Assembly (NCBI RefSeq): GCF_024296685.1
Contig: NZ_CP100763.1
Location: 3,038,001 to 3,102,000 of the forward strand
Origin: Natrinema marinum
Lineage (GTDB): Archaea; Halobacteriota; Halobacteria; Halobacteriales; Natrialbaceae
Reading direction: 5' to 3'
DNA length: 64,000 nucleotides
The translations under genes were made by a program, and so were the position numbers. The notes under the pieces are model-generated. The model ran no database searches. It was not told the DNA's origin and was given only the letters and a program-made list of their open reading frames with translations. How positions within the stretch are numbered: the first letter of the stretch is position 1; every line of letters begins with the position of its first letter. Shown one piece after another: positions 34,541 to 43,337 of the stretch.

Positions 34541-36880
34541 TCACTTCGCCGCGGCGTCTTCGGCGTCCGGTTGCGCGGTCGTTCCACCGCCGCCGCCGTC
34601 GAACAGCCGTCCGCCGGCGGTGAGGACGTAGAGCACGGCCAGCCCGATCAGGTAGGTAACCGAGATCGGGATGGCAAAGAGCAACATCATGAGGATGCCC
34701 TCGGGGCTGAAGAAGGCCGCGAGGGCGAAGATCGCGACGACGACCGGCCGCCAGCGCTCGAGCATCATGCGGTAGCTGATGATGCCACCGACGTGGAACA
34801 GCGCCATCGTGACGATGATGTTGAACAGGAAGCCGATGCCGACGGTCGTGAAGATGACGAGCCAGAAGAAGCTCTTGATCCGGTAGGAGATCTCCATCCC
34901 GTTGGCGAGCGCGTCCGAGATCAGATACGAGATGATCGACGGCGCGACCCAGAAGAACCCGAGGTAGGTCCCGACGGCGAAGCCGGCCAGCAGGCCGCCG
35001 CCCCAGAAGATGAACGTTCGCCGGTCGCCGTAGACCAGACCGCGCTCTTTGGCGGCCGGCCAGGCGTAGTACAGTACCAGTGGAAGGGTCGCCACGAGAC
35101 CGGCGAGCGCGCTCACTTTCGCCTCGAAGATGAGCACCTCGACGGGGTGCAGTGCGACGACGATGTCCAGTTCGTTGATGAGCACGTCGAGGCCCTCGGC
35201 GGAACTCAGTTCGGACAGATCGACGCCGTCACCGACGACCTCGACGAGCACGTCTCGAGGCACTCGGCTGAGGAAGAGCTCGAGGATCCTCCTGATCCCG
35301 CCCGAGTAGAGCCAGAAGAAGGAACCGCCCATGACGAGCATAAACAGCCCGACGATGCGGAACACCTTCGAGGTGAGGCTGTTGAAGATAAAGGCGATGT
35401 CGTAGGCGTAGCCGCCGATGTCGTCCTCGGTCGTCTCGTCCTCGGTGAAGGGGTCGAGCATCCCTGCGGCGGTGTTGGCAAAGAGGCTCTCGTCCCCGCC
35501 ACCGCCGCCCCCACCACCGCTCGCCGCGGCGGTTGCCGCTCCGCCCGCGGCCGAGCCATCGCTCTCGGCTGCCGCCTCGAGGGAGTCGAACCGGTCGAGG
35601 ATGGCCTGGGCCTTGTCCCGATCGTCGTCGTACATCGCCTGTCGGGAGTACTCGAGGGCCTGGTCTTCGCTCATGCTCAGGAAGACCTGCGTCGAGATAT
35701 CGGAGATGTCCTCGGCCTCGAGCGTCTCCCAGTCGATGTCCTCGTGGGTGTCGGCGCGCCGGATGTCGTCCTCGCGCGGATAGACCGGCCCCTGCAGGAC
35801 GCGGATCGTATAGCCGAGCAGGACGACGAAGCCGGCGACGAGACTGACGATGGTCCCGACCGCGACCGCGCCGGCGAGGCCGTGGGTGTCCGCCGTCGTC
35901 TCGAGGCCGAGCGGTTCCGTGGGACGGATCAGGTCGGGGAACGCGGGGAAGACCGTCTGGTGGAGGTAGTCGAAGGCCCCCTGCTCGACGGCGACGGTGG
36001 CCGCGGCCGCGACGACCGCTAAGATGGCGCCGAACTGGAGCAGTCGCCATTTGACGTGTCCAGTCCCCGACCCGCCGGATTTCGCGGCCCCGCGCCGCCG
36101 GGCGTTGGAGACGACTTTGGCCAGTCCGAGACTGAACACGTAGAGGACGACCATCGGCGTTGCCCACATGACCTGCGTGAACGGGTCCGGCGGCGAGAAG
36201 ACGGCGCCGAAGATCACGATCGCGACGACGGCGTGTCGCCACTTGTCGCGGAACGTCTCGTAGGGGATGATCTCGGTGTAGGAGAGGACGCCCATGATCA
36301 GCGGCAGTTGGGCGGCGAGCCCGAACGACAGCGTCAGCAGCGCCATGAACTCGGTGAACTCGGTGATACCGAAGCTGGGCTTGATACCGGCGCTGACGGC
36401 GTTGCCCGCGAGGAACGCGAACGCGAAGGGGAAGAAGACGCTGTAGGCGTAGAAGACGCCGAGCGCGAACAACACCAGCGACATCGTCACGAAGCCGGCG
36501 ATGTACCCCTTCGAGATCGGAACGACGCTGTCGTAGCCGCGTCGACGGATCGCCTTGCGGGTGAAAAAGAGAAGTGCGGGAATCGCGACGATGATACCGG
36601 TGATGATCCCGATCTTCGCCTGCAGGAGGATCACTTCGAACGGCGTCCGGGTGATGACGTCGGTCGAGGCGACGACGTTGTCGCTCATCTGCGACGTCGC
36701 GGTCGCCTCGAGGAAGTCCCAGATGACGACGCGAAGCGCGTAAAAGGAGCCGACGAACCCGATGAGGAAGACGATGAACACCTTCTGGAGGTGCTGCTGG
36801 GCACCCGAGAGGAGCGTGCCGATCGTTTCCCGGCCGGTGTTTAGGGCGCGGGCGGTGTCCTCGTCGAGGGCAGAACTCAT
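34541..36880 (-). CDS. tatCt: Double-domain Tat translocase subunit TatC (TatCt)
   Basis: A 779-residue protein made of two TatC domains. The first (about 15-270) contains LLSGAQQHLQKVFIVFLIGFVGSFYALRV and FSPPDPFTQVMWATPMVVLYVF; the second (about 480-750) contains PVEVLIFEAKVSALAGLVATLP and FSPEGILMMLLFAIPISVTYLIGLAVLYVL. Between them lie two more hydrophobic segments and a soluble linker with a Gly-rich run. This fused TatCt, paired with a single-domain TatCo, is a known peculiarity of haloarchaea, which send most secreted proteins by the Tat route. TATA-like GTTGATAAC at about 36903-36910 (minus strand) makes the ATG leaderless. No tatA gene is nearby. Confidence 0.95.
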   Translation of the reverse strand: MSSALDEDTARALNTGRETIGTLLSGAQQHLQKVFIVFLIGFVGSFYALRVVIWDFLEATATSQMSDNVVASTDVITRTPFEVILLQAKIGIITGIIVAIPALLFFTRKAIRRRGYDSVVPISKGYIAGFVTMSLVLFALGVFYAYSVFFPFAFAFLAGNAVSAGIKPSFGITEFTEFMALLTLSFGLAAQLPLIMGVLSYTEIIPYETFRDKWRHAVVAIVIFGAVFSPPDPFTQVMWATPMVVLYVFSLGLAKVVSNARRRGAAKSGGSGTGHVKWRLLQFGAILAVVAAAATVAVEQGAFDYLHQTVFPAFPDLIRPTEPLGLETTADTHGLAGAVAVGTIVSLVAGFVVLLGYTIRVLQGPVYPREDDIRRADTHEDIDWETLEAEDISDISTQVFLSMSEDQALEYSRQAMYDDDRDKAQAILDRFDSLEAAAESDGSAAGGAATAAASGGGGGGGGDESLFANTAAGMLDPFTEDETTEDDIGGYAYDIAFIFNSLTSKVFRIVGLFMLVMGGSFFWLYSGGIRRILELFLSRVPRDVLVEVVGDGVDLSELSSAEGLDVLINELDIVVALHPVEVLIFEAKVSALAGLVATLPLVLYYAWPAAKERGLVYGDRRTFIFWGGGLLAGFAVGTYLGFFWVAPSIISYLISDALANGMEISYRIKSFFWLVIFTTVGIGFLFNIIVTMALFHVGGIISYRMMLERWRPVVVAIFALAAFFSPEGILMMLLFAIPISVTYLIGLAVLYVLTAGGRLFDGGGGGTTAQPDAEDAAAK

Positions 36881-37019: not shown

Positions 37020-38000
37020 ATGTCGGACGAGCCGGCCGATGGACGCGACGTCGAGGGCCCCGACGAGCCACAGGACGCCCCTGACGAGCGACAGCCAGCG
37101 CCCGCCGACGCCGCCGGATCCGATCCCGAGTTCGACGGGGCTGACCACCTTACTGAGGCCGAACGCGAGGACTTTCCGGACCTCGAGACCGACGGCGAGG
37201 GCGTCGTCGGCGATCGGCCAAACCCCGAACCGACGTATCCCGATCCCGACGACGACATCGGCGGCATCTCGACGCCGCCGGACGACGAGGAGATGCCGCT
37301 GGCCGACCACATCGAGGAGATGGTCCTCCGGCTGGCGGTCGTCCTCCTGTTCGGGGCCGGCGGGACGGCGATCGGCCTGCTGTGGGCGTCCGACGCCATC
37401 CAGTTCGTCTGGGACAACGTCTTCCCCTACGCCGACGGCGAGGTGCCGCCGCCGCACGTCTACCACCCGCTCGAGCTCTGGCTGACCCGGATCAAGATCT
37501 CGTCGCTGCTGGGTATCATGATCGCGCTGCCGGCGTTCGTCTACGAGTGTTACCTGTTCATGCGCCCGGGGCTGTACCCCAACGAGCGCAAGTACTACCT
37601 CGCGGCCGTCCCGACCAGCGTCGTGCTGGCGGCGATCGGGATGGTGTTCTCCTACATCCTCGTCCTGCCGGTTCTGTTCAGGTACTTCACCTACTACGCC
37701 GAGGGGAGCGCGGAGATCGCGTACGCGCTCGGCGAGACGTTCAACCTGATCATCACGCTGACGGGCTTTCTCGCGGTCGTCTTCCAGATTCCGCTCTTTA
37801 TCATGCTGGCGATCATGATGGGCGTGACGACCCGCCGCTGGCTCGCCCAGAAGCGGCTGTACTTCTGGGCGGCGTTCGCCGGTCTGGCGTTCATGTTCGC
37901 GTTCGACCCGACGGGGATGGCCCCCGTCATCGTCGCGGTCACGATGATCCTGCTCTTCGAAGGGACGCTGCTCGTCCTGAAGTGGGTCGGCGTCGACTAG
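37020..38000 (+). CDS. tatCo: Single-domain Tat translocase subunit TatC (TatCo)
   Basis: A 326-residue protein. The first 95 residues are an acidic proline-rich cytoplasmic extension; the TatC core follows with MPLADHIEEMVLRLAVVLLFG, PHVYHPLELWLTRIKISSLLGIMIALPAFVYECYLFMRPGLYPNERKYY and the final FDPTGMAPVIVAVTMILLFEGTLL. Six membrane helices are visible. It recognises twin-arginine signal peptides and forms the translocon together with TatA; TatCo is the essential partner in haloarchaea studied. The multicopper oxidase and DUF4397 proteins in this window carry Tat signals and should be clients. Divergent from tatCt with a shared 139-bp promoter region. Confidence 0.95.
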   Translation: MSDEPADGRDVEGPDEPQDAPDERQPAPADAAGSDPEFDGADHLTEAEREDFPDLETDGEGVVGDRPNPEPTYPDPDDDIGGISTPPDDEEMPLADHIEEMVLRLAVVLLFGAGGTAIGLLWASDAIQFVWDNVFPYADGEVPPPHVYHPLELWLTRIKISSLLGIMIALPAFVYECYLFMRPGLYPNERKYYLAAVPTSVVLAAIGMVFSYILVLPVLFRYFTYYAEGSAEIAYALGETFNLIITLTGFLAVVFQIPLFIMLAIMMGVTTRRWLAQKRLYFWAAFAGLAFMFAFDPTGMAPVIVAVTMILLFEGTLLVLKWVGVD

Positions 38001-38320
38001 ACCGACTCGAGTCGCGATCCGGGCTGTGCCGTTTTGCTCGCGAGTAGTGGCATCCATCGTCGGCCCGTGCCCATTCGGTCGGTCGCCCCGCCCGGCCCAC
38101 CGTCGTATACTGTCCTTATATTCTTCTTATCCGTTCGCATATTGCGGATTCCAGACGATTCGAGAGAGAAAACACACGGTTCGTAAACGATCATCGTTTA
38201 GTAGCTGCATATGTTCTTCTGGAGCGTGAACATCTGAATGATGGCGAGGGAATCTCTCTCAGATTGGCGAGATTGTAAATCGTGTGGACTCGCTCGCTCC
38301 GATTCCGCGGGGTGGGAGCC
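38001..38320. other. 320-bp gene-free stretch upstream of nasA
   Basis: No credible coding frame is seen. The stretch contains the inverted repeat CGCA-TAT-TGCG at 38136-38146 and the 17-bp palindrome at 38184-38200 described separately, both in AT-rich sequence, so it is best seen as a long regulatory region for nasA. Confidence 0.6.
38184..38200. promoter_or_regulatory. Perfect palindrome TAAACGATCATCGTTTA upstream of nasA
   Basis: Eight-base arms surround a single central base. It lies 120 bp before the chosen nasA start. A related sequence, TAAACGGTTACTGTTAT, is found upstream of nirA (41083-41099), sharing the left arm. A shared operator for nitrate-assimilation control is the likely explanation; the regulator is unknown. 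Confidence 0.6.
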
Positions 38321-40462
38321 GTGACCGACCTCGTGCCGACCACGTGTATGCGGTGTGCGGTCGGCTGCGGTCACGTCCAGCAGGCCCCCGAGCGGGGCTA
38401 CGGCCTCGAGACAGTCCGCGGCGACGCCGCCCATCCGGTCAATCAGGGACTGGCCTGCCAGCGCGGCGTCAGCGAGACCGCCGATCCCGACGGTGAGTGG
38501 CTGACCCGTCCGCTCGTGCGTAAGGACGGCGATCTCGTCCCGACGACGATGGAGTCGGCCCTCGAGCGCGCCGCCGAGGGGCTCGGCACCGCACTCGAAA
38601 GCGACGGTGACGGCGTGGCGGTGCTGGGCAGCGGCCAGCAGACCAACGAGGCCGCCTACGCGCTGGGCAAACTCGCCCGCGGCGGCTTCGGGACGCGGTA
38701 CTACGACGCGAACACGACACTCTGTATGGCGAGCGCGGTGACGGCCTACTACGATGCCTTCGGCAGCGACGCGCCGCCGCCGACCTACGACGACATTCCC
38801 GAGGCCCGGAGCCACGTCGTCTGGGGGGCGAATCCGGCGGCCGCCCACCCAGTTATGTTCCGCTGGATCCGTCAGTCGGCCGACGACGACGATTCGGAAC
38901 TGATCGTCGTCGATCCCGTCCACAGCGAGACGGCCGAGGTGGCCGACCACCACGTTCCGCTCGAGCCCGGCGGCGACCTCGCGCTCGCACGAGCGATTCT
39001 CGCTCGCGTGGTCGAGACCGATCGCGTCGACGAATCGTTCGTCGCCGAGGCGACGACCGGCTTCGACGAACTCCGCGCGGAACTACCCGACGCGGCCGAG
39101 GCCGCCGAGATGGCGGGCGTCTCGATGGCCGATGTCGACAAACTCGCCAACGCACTCGAGGATCCCACCCTGCTGTACTGGGGGATGGGCATCAACCAGA
39201 GCGTCAACGGAACCGCGGCCGCGGGTGCGCTCATCGATTGCTGTCTCGCGACCGGCAACCTCCGGCCGGGCTCGGGACCGTTCTCGTTGACCGGCCAGGC
39301 CAACTCGATGGGGACCCGCGTCTGCTCTTCGAAGGGGTCCTGGCCCGGACACCGGCCGTTCGCCGATCCCGACCACCGCCGTGAGGTAGCCGAGACGTGG
39401 GAGGTGCCGGTCTCGCGGTTCCCCGACGATCCCGGTCCGGGACCGGTCGGCATCGTCAACGCGATCGGCGACGAGGTCGAGGCCGTTTACGCCGTCGCGA
39501 CCAACCCCGTCGCGGGCATGCCCGACGCGACGCGCGTTCGCGAGAAACTCGAGGACGCGTTCCTCGTCGTGCAGGATGCCTTCCGCAGCGAGACGGTCGA
39601 GTATGCCGACGTGGTCCTCCCCGCCGCCACGTGGGGCGAGTCCGAGGGGACGACGACCAACATGGAGCGGACGATCTCCCGCGTTCGCGCGGCGACGGAG
39701 ACGCCAAGTGGCGTCCGCACGGACCTCGAGCTGATCGGTGGTCTCGCCGACCGTATCGTCCCGGACCTGTTCGACGAAGTGCTCGAGCCCGCGGCCGTCT
39801 TCGACGAGTTCGCTGCGCTGACCGCCGGCACTCCCGCGGACTGTTCGGGAATCAGCTACGAGCGCCTCGAGGCCGAGCGCGCGGTCCGCTGGCCGGCACC
39901 CGCACCGGACGTCGCGGCGGGGTACCGCTACTACGACGCCACGACGGATGGCGGCGAATCGGCGGAGGCCGAGCCGACCGACGAATCGTGGTCGTTCCCC
40001 ACTGGCTCCGGCCGCGCGCGGTTCTCGAGCGGCGAGGCCCGTCCGCTTCCGGAGCCGACCGACGAGTCCTACCCGCTGACGCTGACGACCGCGCGCCGCC
40101 CGGACGCCTACAACACCGGCGTGCGGACCCGCGAGGACGAGCCGCCGACGGCGCGGGTCAGCCCGGCGACGGCTGCCGCGCTCGCGGACGAACTCGAGGC
40201 CCCCGTCGACGCCTCCGAGGACGCGGACGCCCGGTACGGCCGCGTCGTCTCCCGGCGGGCGTCGGTTACGGTCCGCGTCGAGACCGACGAGGCGATCCCC
40301 GACGGGGTCGTCTGGCTCCCGATCCACCATCCCGACGTGAACGACCTTACGCTGCCGGACGTCGATCCCCGCTCGAACGAGCCCAACTTCAAGCAGTGTG
40401 CGGTCCGCCTCGAGCCACCCCGTGAGCGAGACATCGGCGCGGTCGCCGAAGCGAGCGCCTGA
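38321..40462 (+). CDS. nasA: Assimilatory nitrate reductase (molybdopterin oxidoreductase, NasA)
   Basis: A 713-residue cytoplasmic enzyme that reduces nitrate to nitrite with ferredoxin. The N-terminus has the [4Fe-4S] cysteines CMRCAVGC plus the fourth in LACQRGVS. Molybdopterin-guanine dinucleotide domains follow with NTTLCMASAV, WGANPAAAHPV, GMGINQSVNGT, TGNLRPGSGPFSLTGQANSMG and a C-terminal dimethylsulfoxide-reductase barrel (LTTARRPDAYNTG, LPIHHPDVNDLT). I take the GTG at 38321 (GTGACCGACCTC) as start since MTDLVPTTCMRC is conserved; another GTG lies 13 codons upstream. nirA follows on the same strand after a small opposite-strand gene. No nitrate transporter is present in the interval. 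Confidence 0.93.
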   Translation: MTDLVPTTCMRCAVGCGHVQQAPERGYGLETVRGDAAHPVNQGLACQRGVSETADPDGEWLTRPLVRKDGDLVPTTMESALERAAEGLGTALESDGDGVAVLGSGQQTNEAAYALGKLARGGFGTRYYDANTTLCMASAVTAYYDAFGSDAPPPTYDDIPEARSHVVWGANPAAAHPVMFRWIRQSADDDDSELIVVDPVHSETAEVADHHVPLEPGGDLALARAILARVVETDRVDESFVAEATTGFDELRAELPDAAEAAEMAGVSMADVDKLANALEDPTLLYWGMGINQSVNGTAAAGALIDCCLATGNLRPGSGPFSLTGQANSMGTRVCSSKGSWPGHRPFADPDHRREVAETWEVPVSRFPDDPGPGPVGIVNAIGDEVEAVYAVATNPVAGMPDATRVREKLEDAFLVVQDAFRSETVEYADVVLPAATWGESEGTTTNMERTISRVRAATETPSGVRTDLELIGGLADRIVPDLFDEVLEPAAVFDEFAALTAGTPADCSGISYERLEAERAVRWPAPAPDVAAGYRYYDATTDGGESAEAEPTDESWSFPTGSGRARFSSGEARPLPEPTDESYPLTLTTARRPDAYNTGVRTREDEPPTARVSPATAAALADELEAPVDASEDADARYGRVVSRRASVTVRVETDEAIPDGVVWLPIHHPDVNDLTLPDVDPRSNEPNFKQCAVRLEPPRERDIGAVAEASA

Positions 40463-40601
40463 CGCTCTCCTCGCCGACCCGGCGGGCGACGGCTCGAGGG
40501 AATCCGCGATACGAAGCTCCACGACGCAGGGCTTCGCCGGCGCGGTTGTGACGAGCCCGCCGCGACCGAACTCGAGCGTCTCTCGCTCGATAGTTCGTTC
40601 C

Positions 40602-40871
40602 TCACGCGCGCTCGCGCTCCGTCCACTTCGTATAGAACGCGAGTACCGACGCAACTGCCGCCACGAGTGTCAGGCCGGCGGCGACGTGTTTCCCGGCTCG
40701 AAACGCGTACGCGCCCAGCAGAACGAACGCGATCACCGATAGCCCGGTGCTCGTCGCCGTTCTCCCCCGTTTGCGGTACGCAAAGAGGCCCGAAAGCGCC
40801 GCCAGTAGCGACACCAGTACGAGCAGACCGCTCGCATCAGTGAGCGGCTGTCCGAGCACTTCGATCGCCAT
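40602..40871 (-). CDS. Small membrane protein between nasA and nirA
   Basis: An 89-residue protein with three hydrophobic segments: LLVLVSLLAALSGLFAY, TGLSVIAFVLLGAYAF and AAGLTLVAAVASVLAFY. No family is recognised. The ATG at 40869-40871 was chosen over an upstream TTG. It sits on the opposite strand between the two nitrate genes. Whether it belongs to nitrogen metabolism is unclear. Confidence 0.6.
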   Translation of the reverse strand: MAIEVLGQPLTDASGLLVLVSLLAALSGLFAYRKRGRTATSTGLSVIAFVLLGAYAFRAGKHVAAGLTLVAAVASVLAFYTKWTERERA

Positions 40872-41198
40872 CTGGCCTGATTTTATCGGACGAGTCAATG
40901 TATCTACTGGTCCGCTCGAGAAACCAGCCGGCTCCGGTCGTCACTCGATCCGCTTCCGTGCCGAACGCGTTTGCATTCGCTCATTCTCTTCCCTGTCACG
41001 CGCGACATACGTCCTAATATAGATCATATTCCATTGGAGATACTACGTCCGGGCCCGAACGCGCGGGAAAAACAGATGTTTGTAAACGGTTACTGTTATA
41101 TGGTTTAGAACCATGTTGCTGAAACGTGAATTACGACATGTTCGATGAGGAAATTCGAAGTTTCGAGTCCGATCGTTCGGTCAGTGGGGTGAGGGTCG
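40872..41198. other. 327-bp regulatory stretch upstream of nirA
   Basis: No gene is seen. From 41020 onward the sequence is AT-rich and contains TAAACGGTTACTGTTAT (41083-41099) and, touching it, the perfect inverted repeat ATGGTT-TAG-AACCAT (41100-41114). Both lie 85-116 bp before the nirA ATG. Confidence 0.6.
41083..41114. promoter_or_regulatory. nirA upstream elements: TAAACG half-site and ATGGTTTAGAACCAT palindrome
   Basis: TAAACGGTTACTGTTAT (41083-41099) shares its left arm with the perfect palindrome upstream of nasA and is followed at once by ATGGTTTAGAACCAT, with 6-bp arms. Two adjacent dyads suggest binding of one or two regulators. TATA-like TTATATGG overlaps the junction, so binding would compete with TBP if this is the promoter. 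Confidence 0.5.
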
Positions 41199-42968
41199 AT
41201 GGTGCATAAGAAAGAGGAACTCAAGGAGGGCTGTTACGGCGACGACGTCCGCGAACATCTCCTCGAGTTCGCGGAAAACGGTGGCTACGAGGCGATTCCG
41301 GAGGACGAACACGAGAAGTGGTTCACCCGGTTCAAGTTCTGGGGGCTGTTCCACCAGCGCTCGGGGCAGGAATCGTACTTCATGATGCGACTGACCAACG
41401 CCAGTGGCATCTTAGAGCCCGACCAGTTGCGAACCATCGGCGAGGTCGCCCGCGAGTACGCGAAAGGCCCCGTCGAGAACCCCGAGTTCGGCAACGGCTG
41501 GATCGACCTGACGACTCGCCAGTCGGTACAACTCCACTGGCTCAAACTCGAGGATGTCCCCGAAGTGTGGGAGAAACTCGAGTCGGTCGGCGTCCACTCG
41601 CGCTCGTCGGGCGGGGACACGATGCGCAACATTTCGGGCTGTCCGCTCCACGGCAAAGCCGAGGAGTTCGTCGAGTCCGGCCCGCTCCTCGAGCGTTTCG
41701 AGGAGGAACTTCGCAAGGACGACGCGCTGGCGAACATGCCCCGAAAGTTCAATATCAGCGTCTCGGGCTGTACGGTCGGCTGCGCCCAGGATTCGATCAA
41801 CGACATCGGGTTCGAGCCGGCGACCAAGGAGATCGACGGCGAGGAGGTCCGCGGCTTCAACGTACGTATCGGTGGCGGCCTCGGCGGTCGTCAGCCCCGC
41901 GCCGCGACGCCGCTTGATGTCTTCGTCCGGCCCGAGAACGCCTACGAGGTCGGCCGCGGGTTCGTCGAACTCTACCACGACTACGGCAACCGACAGAACC
42001 GCTCGAAGAACCGCGCGCGGTTCTTCGCCGAGGACTGGGGCATGGAGAAGATTCGCGAGACCCTACAGGACGAATACGTCGACTTCGAGATGCACACAGC
42101 CGGGGAGGACTTCCGCTCCGAGTACACCTACAACGCCGGCCGCCCCGTCGCGGACGGCCAGCACGACCACGTCGGCGTCGGCGATCAGCAGGACGGGCAA
42201 AACTACGTCGGGCTGAGCGTCCCGGTCGGCCGCCTGCCCGCCGAGGACGCCATCGAACTGGCCGATCTGGCCGACGAGTACGGCTCCGGCGAAGTTCGGC
42301 TGACCCGTCGGCAGAACCCCGTCGTCGTCGACGTGGCCGACGACGACCTCGAGGAGCTGCTCGCCGAACCGCTGCTCTCCGAGTACCCGCCGAAACCGAG
42401 CCCGTTCGAGCGCGGCGCGATGGCCTGCACCGGCACCGAGTTCTGCTCGATCGCGCTGACCGAGACGAAAGGCCGGATGGCCCGCATGCTGCGCTGGCTC
42501 AACAAGAACGTCGACCTCCCCGAAGACGTCGGCAAGATCAAGATGCATTATTCGGGCTGTACGGCCGACTGCGGCCAGGCGATGACCGCCGACATCGGCC
42601 TGCAGGGAATGCGCGCCCGCAAGAACGGCGAGATGGTCGAGGCCTTCGACATCGGCGTCGGCGGCGGCGTCGGCGAGAACCCCTCCTTTATCGACTGGGT
42701 CCAACAGCGCGTTCCGGCCGACGAGGCCCCCGGTGCGATCCGGAACTTACTCGAGGCCTACGCCGCTCACCGTTCCGAGGGCCAGACGTTCCGCCAATGG
42801 GTCGAGGCGACGGCCGAGGAACAGCTCGTCGAGTTCTGTACGCCCGAGGAGACCGACTTCGAGGCGCCGTACATGGACGACGCCAAGCAGTCGTGGTACC
42901 CGTTCGCGGAGAGCGAGTCCGCGGCGGCCGCGACGGCCGACGAATCCACAGTGCCATCGGACGACTGA
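41199..42968 (+). CDS. nirA: Ferredoxin-nitrite reductase (NirA)
   Basis: A 589-residue siroheme enzyme reducing nitrite to ammonia. It has the duplicated sulfite/nitrite-reductase layout: two ferredoxin-like halves (WIDLTTRQSVQLHWL and GEVRLTRRQNPVVVDV) and two siroheme/Fe-S domains. The [4Fe-4S]-siroheme cysteines are ACTGTEFC and SGCTADCGQ in the second half; the first half keeps SGCPLHG and SGCTVGCAQ. The end is an acidic/alanine tail. The short ferredoxin-dependent type agrees with NasA. Reading from the ATG at 41199 gives MVHKKEELKEGCYGDDVREH, the family N-terminus. T-rich TCTTTTCGTCTTTCC (42988-43002) downstream may be its terminator. Confidence 0.94.
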   Translation: MVHKKEELKEGCYGDDVREHLLEFAENGGYEAIPEDEHEKWFTRFKFWGLFHQRSGQESYFMMRLTNASGILEPDQLRTIGEVAREYAKGPVENPEFGNGWIDLTTRQSVQLHWLKLEDVPEVWEKLESVGVHSRSSGGDTMRNISGCPLHGKAEEFVESGPLLERFEEELRKDDALANMPRKFNISVSGCTVGCAQDSINDIGFEPATKEIDGEEVRGFNVRIGGGLGGRQPRAATPLDVFVRPENAYEVGRGFVELYHDYGNRQNRSKNRARFFAEDWGMEKIRETLQDEYVDFEMHTAGEDFRSEYTYNAGRPVADGQHDHVGVGDQQDGQNYVGLSVPVGRLPAEDAIELADLADEYGSGEVRLTRRQNPVVVDVADDDLEELLAEPLLSEYPPKPSPFERGAMACTGTEFCSIALTETKGRMARMLRWLNKNVDLPEDVGKIKMHYSGCTADCGQAMTADIGLQGMRARKNGEMVEAFDIGVGGGVGENPSFIDWVQQRVPADEAPGAIRNLLEAYAAHRSEGQTFRQWVEATAEEQLVEFCTPEETDFEAPYMDDAKQSWYPFAESESAAAATADESTVPSDD

Positions 42969-43052: not shown

Positions 43053-43337
43053 ATGCCGGAAGAAGTACTCTTCAAATCCGAAAGCAAGCACAGCCGGTCC
43101 GAGATCGCGTCGCTGCTCCGTCGCGTGGCGGACAATCTCGATGACGGCGAAGCAATCTCCCTCAAGGCCGGCTCCGAGTCCGTCACCCTCGAGCCGCCGG
43201 CTCACCCGACGTTCGAAGTCAAAGCCGAGCGCGAGGGGCCGGCGGACGCGCCCGGCGAACTCAGCGTCGAGTTCGAACTCGAGTGGGACGAAGCCGGCGA
43301 GGACGGCGGCGACGGTGGAAGTCTGGAAATCGAGTGA
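43053..43337 (+). CDS. Amphi-Trp domain protein
   Basis: A 94-residue acidic protein. It shows the amphi-Trp pattern EEVLFKSESKHSRSEIASLLRRVADNL followed by a strand-rich part VTLEPPAHPTFEVKAERE and FELEWDE. The domain is named from bacterial and archaeal proteins and its function is unknown. TATA-like TACTTATCAG at 43021-43030 lies 23-32 nt before the ATG, so the gene is leaderless. Convergent stop codons of this gene and its neighbour are 1 bp apart. Confidence 0.85.
   Translation: MPEEVLFKSESKHSRSEIASLLRRVADNLDDGEAISLKAGSESVTLEPPAHPTFEVKAEREGPADAPGELSVEFELEWDEAGEDGGDGGSLEIE

Follow-up and report, generated by a model that had tools for sequence, protein, structure and literature searches.

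The genes nasA and nirA of the haloarchaeon Natrinema marinum, for assimilatory nitrate reductase and a protein of the ferredoxin-nitrite reductase family, are each preceded by a copy of one long, rigidly spaced composite promoter, as comparison with relatives indicates. Both copies lie in the window, that is, the whole stretch of 64,000 nucleotides that was analysed (G000:C1:3038001-3102000 of a 3.77-Mb genome), at 38114-38203 for nasA and 41013-41102 for nirA. A preliminary description had singled out two related palindromic sites before these genes, and a further dyad at nirA, as operators. Judged by their conservation, the two sites form the core of the composite promoter and are not free-standing operators; the distal element 69 bp upstream, an additional target (amtB) and the leader open reading frames (ORFs) had been overlooked.

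We favour, with a probability of about 0.66, a model that combines one composite promoter, a multi-site regulator of the Lrp/AsnC type and leader-coupled translation. According to this model, the promoter would switch on the nitrogen-scavenging genes nasA, nirA and amtB, and narK in some relatives, in haloarchaea. The regulator would bind the distal block and a set of repeated sites ending in the proximal box, beside the transcription factor B recognition element (BRE) and the TATA box, and would help the TATA-binding protein (TBP) and transcription factor B (TFB) assemble, so that the rigid 68-69 bp geometry may reflect one nucleoprotein complex. Transcription is predicted to start near a short leader ORF, and the stop codon of this ORF overlaps the start codon of nasA, nirA or amtB. 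We infer activation, as opposed to repression, from the published nitrogen response of the Haloferax nas and amtB-glnK genes, as far as the available parts of those accounts describe it (PMC8143581, PMC3831643).

Promoter geometry and the palindromes

The architecture was computed from upstream regions of relatives, 65 different ones for nirA and 45 for nasA; the named close relatives include Natrinema, Haloterrigena, Natrialba and others. In their distal part both promoters have the block CCTWATA, a TAT at -54 and an AT-rich part around -44 (offsets relative to GTAAACG); in their proximal part they have AAAA at -14, the box TTTGTAAACGATTA and, at +14, a TATA box, which amtB has at the same position. 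About 35 bp between the two parts are poorly conserved while their spacing is kept. In the window, the CCTWATA block starts exactly 69 bp before GTAAACG, and the BRE-like tail of the latter leads up to the TATA box. When this distance was measured in the relatives without a preset gap, any value from 55 to 95 bp being allowed, it amounted to 68-70 bp in 52 of the 65 nirA regions (two had another distance and 11 none) and to 68-69 bp in 42 of the 45 nasA regions (three had none).

The proximal box thus places a regulator-type site directly before BRE/TATA, with its position constrained (-14 to -4 from the TATA box) in nasA, nirA and amtB alike. Its tail, CGATTA or CGCTAA, and the TATA box roughly fit the BRE CGAAA and TATA TTWT proposed for haloarchaea in the consulted part of PMC4983044. 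A search for Rfam RNA families gave no match at E<=1 in 37900-41400, which covers leaders and promoters.

The palindromes themselves exist as they had been described, and their coordinates and arms were confirmed. TAAACGATCATCGTTTA, before nasA, is a perfect 17-bp dyad; TAAACGGTTACTGTTAT (41083-41099), before nirA, has the same left arm and three mismatches to the pattern that had been proposed; and ATGGTTTAGAACCAT follows directly 3' of it, with perfect 6-base arms around the 3-base spacer TAG and a would-be seventh pair T-G that leaves the symmetry incomplete. It had been suggested that the first two are operators of a common nitrate regulator and the third the site of another regulator, specific to nirA. 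Taken by itself, the palindrome is weak evidence for this, since perfect dyads of half-length at least 8 occur 11 times within the window, and 2.9% of first-order Markov simulations of both intergenic regions (623 nt) contained at least one (9.9% at half-length 7). What carries weight is the comparison with relatives, in which the left arm is kept in both promoters and the symmetry is not. The 17-mer is perfect in 3/49 nasA, 0/55 nirA and 0/43 amtB promoters, and no compensating changes between the arms were found in the paired columns across these promoters, even though position 9.0 is the most symmetric centre in all three.

At nasA, the palindrome in fact combines the proximal box with the TATA box: the arm shared by all targets is the left one, and the right one, CGTTTA, corresponds to the start of TTTAGTA. 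Symmetry is lost at nirA and amtB, where an identical or almost identical left arm stands before a TATA box that reads TTATAT. As for the second dyad, which also overlaps the TATA box, its 6-base arms are perfect in only two of 55 nirA promoters (the window's and that of L057), the sequence ATG..TTTAG...CATG being partly conserved and the symmetry not. A genome search for palindrome-like sites, proposed as a check, recovered four at no more than two mismatches, of which the other three lie inside long open frames. The reading as two operators is thus largely refuted, and we consider it very improbable. What stands of the preliminary description is that nasA and nirA share a control element, which relatives have kept, and that the cluster holds no regulator gene, none having been seen among those of its proteins that were scanned. 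The same element also precedes amtB in this genome and narK in other genomes.

Targets within and beyond the genome

The fixed-spacing pattern, with at most two mismatches, occurs at five places in the genome; nasA and nirA are full matches, and the amtB promoter (G000:C1:2860563-2860638), with its TATA box at +14 and CGTGA at the offset seen in nirA, comes next, one base off. A profile was built from 68 promoters, six of the 74 chosen sites (nasA L057, L065, L074; nirA L065, L070, L083) having been left out. Run on the whole genome, it retrieves just nirA (2.3e-18), amtB (1.3e-14) and nasA (1.2e-13), the next match being at 0.26; these E-values are rough by the tool's own statement. In this genome the amtB product (L247:4772-6448), a single protein of 558 aa, joins an ammonium transporter to a PII (GlnK) domain.

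A scan of 125 genomes of the window's family gave 117 sites for the exact pattern and 11 for a reversed control. Forty sites outside the known nasA/nirA clusters were read: 26 precede amtB, six nasA and four NarK-type transporters of the major facilitator superfamily, and four none of these. Two of the four transporters were scanned, and their nearest NCBIfam model is NarK nitrate/nitrite, below its cut-off. L102 and L018 contribute two further NarK-type sites, located in the interval from nasA to nirA. Another composite promoter, in L130, has no amtB behind it and looks like a relic after gene loss.

The pattern extends to the order Halobacteriales, where its exact form is present in 80 of 392 genomes, with 35 sites outside the window's family versus seven for the control. 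Of these, 24 were read: amtB follows 17, nirA two and narK one, and the remaining four resemble coding DNA. The profile matches 245 of 313 genomes of the order at E<=0.1 (225/274 among good-quality genomes). From the matching ones, 33 genomes were picked and 30 of the listed sites read; in these loci, which come from eight other families, amtB, nirA, narK or nasA stands downstream in the correct direction in 29. The thirtieth (L228:1501-1576) is flanked on both sides by frames that we read as hemB- and hemL-like, between which amtB sits in the N. marinum genome, and looks like a promoter that outlived its gene.

Since nasA and nirA are neighbours, their promoters could be alike through copying along with the genes, with no common regulator involved. 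This we hold to be exceedingly improbable: amtB and narK are unrelated genes located elsewhere, the pattern persists across nine families including the window's, and about 35 bp between the blocks go unconserved while their spacing is kept.

Such a promoter code, which picks out exactly nasA, nirA and amtB genome-wide, names targets, bases to mutate and a candidate regulator, and gives a direct route, testable in Haloferax, to the haloarchaeal nitrogen-use switch. In the parts of the literature consulted, the switch of nitrate, nitrite and ammonium uptake in non-methanogenic haloarchaea is called unknown or poorly understood (PMC3831643, PMC6801745, PMC8143581), and a limited literature search brought up no motif that we recognised as that of a haloarchaeal nitrogen regulon. 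The AT-rich AAAGACTAART, which belongs to the alanine response, is a different motif (PMC6801745, as far as consulted). In methanogens, nitrogen genes including those of ammonium transport are repressed by NrpR, with the operator GGAA-N6-TTCC. That operator occurs in 0/156 composite promoters, the nrpR gene itself not having been searched for.

The closest known system is nasABC of Haloferax mediterranei, for which the available parts of the accounts report a 5-nt promoter element, TAGAT, needed for induction, and the Lrp/AsnC regulator HFX_0246 (PMC8143581, PMC8229911). It is similar in its genes, in nitrogen control and in an Lrp/AsnC regulator pulled down in vitro, and differs in that composite architecture, fixed spacing, membership of amtB and narK, and a leader ORF are features found here and not in those parts of its description. 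The Haloferax data also hold points that run counter to the model. TAGAT could not be placed on the composite and is absent from the nasA promoters of eight composite-bearing Haloferax genomes, a TAGAT-like part being present in a minority of composite sites. Fifteen genomes were taken as Haloferax because the published lrp primer matches all 15; nasA is present in 12, of which eight have the composite before both nasA and nirA, and four nasA loci lack it. G288 has the exact lrp primer match and no nasA.

The candidate regulator

The genome encodes 10 Lrp/AsnC-domain proteins, one of which, divergent from a glutamine-synthetase-like frame recognised by signature match alone, is the haloarchaeal Lrp NF041396 (274 bits, cut-off 190); the candidate genes are G000:C1:2611277-2611723 or 1697989-1698435. 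A protein of the Lrp/AsnC family is the most likely candidate for the regulator, and probably the right one, for reasons of gene order, binding-site pattern and published binding behaviour; within the family, the glnA-linked NF041396 or a paralog would be the most likely.

With regard to gene order, a further Lrp gene lies directly behind amtB-glnK, under a composite promoter, in 13 operons of family f4 (11 genomes, six genera), nine of these genomes having been chosen for a nearby Lrp and two added from one of the same genera (G206 and G356, both positive). In two genomes of one genus the whole unit of composite promoter, amtB, glnK and lrp is tandemly duplicated (L285, L286). An Lrp gene also stands behind a composite-driven nasA in G087; at this locus (L289, G087:C126:6500-12000) it is on the same strand and 80% identical to the glnA-linked Lrp, and a narK2-type transporter adjoins. 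With regard to binding sites, amtB promoters with 68-bp spacing contain, in several families, two GACn4GTC-like sites (M and P) 30 bp apart, one of which is the proximal box. Across 22 amtB sites, GAC is present in 19 M and 12 P sites and GTC in 11 and 13, respectively; in one site set used for this comparison the gap was fixed at 61-63 with at most two substitutions, and its spacing counts are conditioned accordingly.

In the part of PMC2995911 consulted, archaeal Lrps of the activator type are said to occupy a constrained position directly before the BRE, their sites being separated by two or three turns of the helix. Ptr2, LysM and Ss-LrpB resemble the present case in that a dimer site precedes the BRE by a few bp, and may resemble it in their further sites at such distances; what differs here is a long distal block, CCTWATA, held at 68-69 bp, a nitrogen regulon that spans the order and a regulator that is a candidate. 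Finally, an 18-kDa Lrp was pulled down with the nasABC promoter of H. mediterranei, according to the available part of PMC8143581.

Several observations tell against Lrp. NF041396 was found in all of the 80 genomes examined, of which 67 match the composite and 13 do not, and therefore fails as a discriminating marker; within the window's family, nasA and nirA have a degenerate middle site; and the distal CCTWATA block is unlike the GACn4GTC sites, and two different proteins could therefore be involved. In the consulted parts of the Haloferax reports, moreover, Lrp levels are independent of nitrogen source and the pull-down was positive with both nitrate and ammonium extracts (PMC8143581, PMC8229911). 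The composite might then be real and its regulator another helix-turn-helix protein, or a TFB/TBP pair reading an extended BRE, possibly joined by a separate protein on the distal block, as the overlap of proximal box and BRE and the missing GACn4GTC symmetry of the distal block would suggest. This is the less likely account, with an appreciable chance of being correct; the amtB-glnK-lrp and nasA-lrp gene orders under the composite and the similar repeated sites 30 bp apart speak against it, and the published pull-down is a further point in favour of Lrp.

Leader frames and features of the window

Between the predicted transcription start and the gene, an ATG frame runs over the main start codon in 48/49 nasA, 53/55 nirA and 35/43 amtB leaders, against 3.2, 9.4 and 3.4 in shuffled ones. 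This frame contains stops in only 6/49, 1/55 and 4/43 leaders, respectively, whereas the other two frames have them in 22 to 42, and leader lengths fall into one residue class modulo 3 in 37/49, 49/55 and 41/43. The sequences being related, these counts are not independent, and the contrast between reading frames within the same sequences is the stronger argument. An open upstream frame that ends at or over the next start codon, as in coupled gene pairs, is thus found for nasA, nirA and amtB. Because the stop overlaps the start codon, translation of the main protein probably proceeds by termination-reinitiation. Leader frames ending within -12 to +20 of the assumed start were found at 22 of 29 loci in other families, the start codons being guessed.

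In Haloferax volcanii, termination-reinitiation is a known way of coupling translation (PMC6728339, as far as consulted). The overlaps there have the form ATGA/TGATG, which the leader ORF also shows with nasA or amtB; the difference is that the upstream partner here is a leader of 20-30 codons and not a gene. Frame-preserved leaders are unusual against the 72% of transcripts that are leaderless in H. volcanii, according to the consulted part of PMC4983044.

The leader peptides are little conserved (nonsynonymous/synonymous 1.7-3.8) and narK has such a leader ORF in 3/9 cases, which weakens the case for a shared coupled leader. A conserved leader peptide as such was rejected on the same ratio. 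The leader ORFs may instead have nothing to do with coupling, encoding small proteins or arising by accident from conserved DNA sites past the start: the offset of the leader ATG is mostly fixed (+55 in nasA, +56 in nirA and +62 in amtB), and part of the nasA leader, GATTGTAAATC-like in 24/49, resembles a DNA site. We regard this as rather unlikely, given that stops are avoided in the leader frame only, that lengths mostly differ by multiples of three and that the amino-acid sequences are poorly conserved. Coupling thus remains the preferred role of these frames. A broader proposition, an order-wide nitrogen-starvation code in which a fixed-geometry Lrp-type complex on a promoter of about 110 bp joins an obligatory translated leader on every target mRNA, giving control of transcription by the complex and of translation by a leader frame that is independent of sequence, is advanced only tentatively.

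Within the nasA leader ORF, GATTGTAAATC at 38270-38280 is extended to GTGTGATTGTAAATCACAC in many relatives and resembles part of the distal element of other families. As a hairpin, GTGTGATTGTAAATCACAC was discarded, being imperfect in the window and part of the leader ORF; GTGTGATTGTAAATCACAC/GATTGTAAAYC (24/49 nasA leaders) is a possible DNA site.

Table 1. Features of the nasA and nirA promoters, leaders and genes (window coordinates)
Feature	Position	Strand	Remarks
nasA distal element: CCTTATA 38114-38120, TATCC 38128-38132, ATATTG 38139-38144	38114..38144	+	columns -69 to -40 conserved in 43/45 nasA regions
nasA promoter A-tract	38169..38172	+	conserved columns -14 to -11
nasA proximal box TTCGTAAACGATCA; last part likely BRE; holds left arm of palindrome	38180..38193	+	columns -3 to +10 near-invariant
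17-bp palindrome (proximal box and start of TATA box)	38184..38200	+	perfect in 3/49 nasA promoters
nasA TATA box TTTAGTA	38197..38203	+	+14, TTT invariant; position equals TTATATG of nirA/amtB
CGTGAA, predicted nasA transcription start region	38225..38230	+	conserved; 28 nt after start of TATA box
nasA leader ORF, 28 codons; stop TGA overlaps nasA GTG (overlap GTGA)	38238..38324	+	
nasA, assimilatory nitrate reductase, start GTG 38321	38321..40462	+	NF041323 Nitr_red_NasA_Halo, 1254 bits (cut-off 1000)
nirA distal element: CCTAATA 41013-41019, TATTCC 41027-41032, ATTGGAGAT 41033-41041, ACGTCCGG 41045-41052	41013..41052	+	columns conserved in 50/65 nirA regions
nirA promoter A-tract	41068..41072	+	conserved columns -14 to -11
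nirA proximal box TTTGTAAACGGTTA with BRE-like tail	41079..41092	+	columns -3 to +10 near-invariant
nirA TATA box TTATATG	41096..41102	+	+14
Second dyad of nirA, overlapping TATA box	41100..41114	+	arms perfect in 2/55 nirA promoters
CGTGAA, predicted nirA transcription start region	41125..41130	+	conserved columns
nirA leader ORF, 23 codons; crosses nirA ATG, stop TAA 41207-41209	41138..41209	+	
nirA, ferredoxin-nitrite reductase family	41199..42968	+	Pfam NIR_SIR; best NCBIfam NF007125, 409 bits, below cut-off 594

Several neighbouring genes of the window were also inspected. Upstream of nasA, a minus-strand gene for a protein with two TatC domains (34541-36880) is divergent from a single tatC on the plus strand (37020-38000), and a single tatC precedes nasA in 16 of 17 named relatives that have the haloarchaeal nirA. 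Between nasA and nirA, and divergent from the latter, the minus strand carries a 98-aa open frame (40602-40898) with a sub-threshold TauE match. Behind nirA, 43053-43337 encodes an Amphi-Trp domain protein, found in the same place in four of the 17 named relatives.

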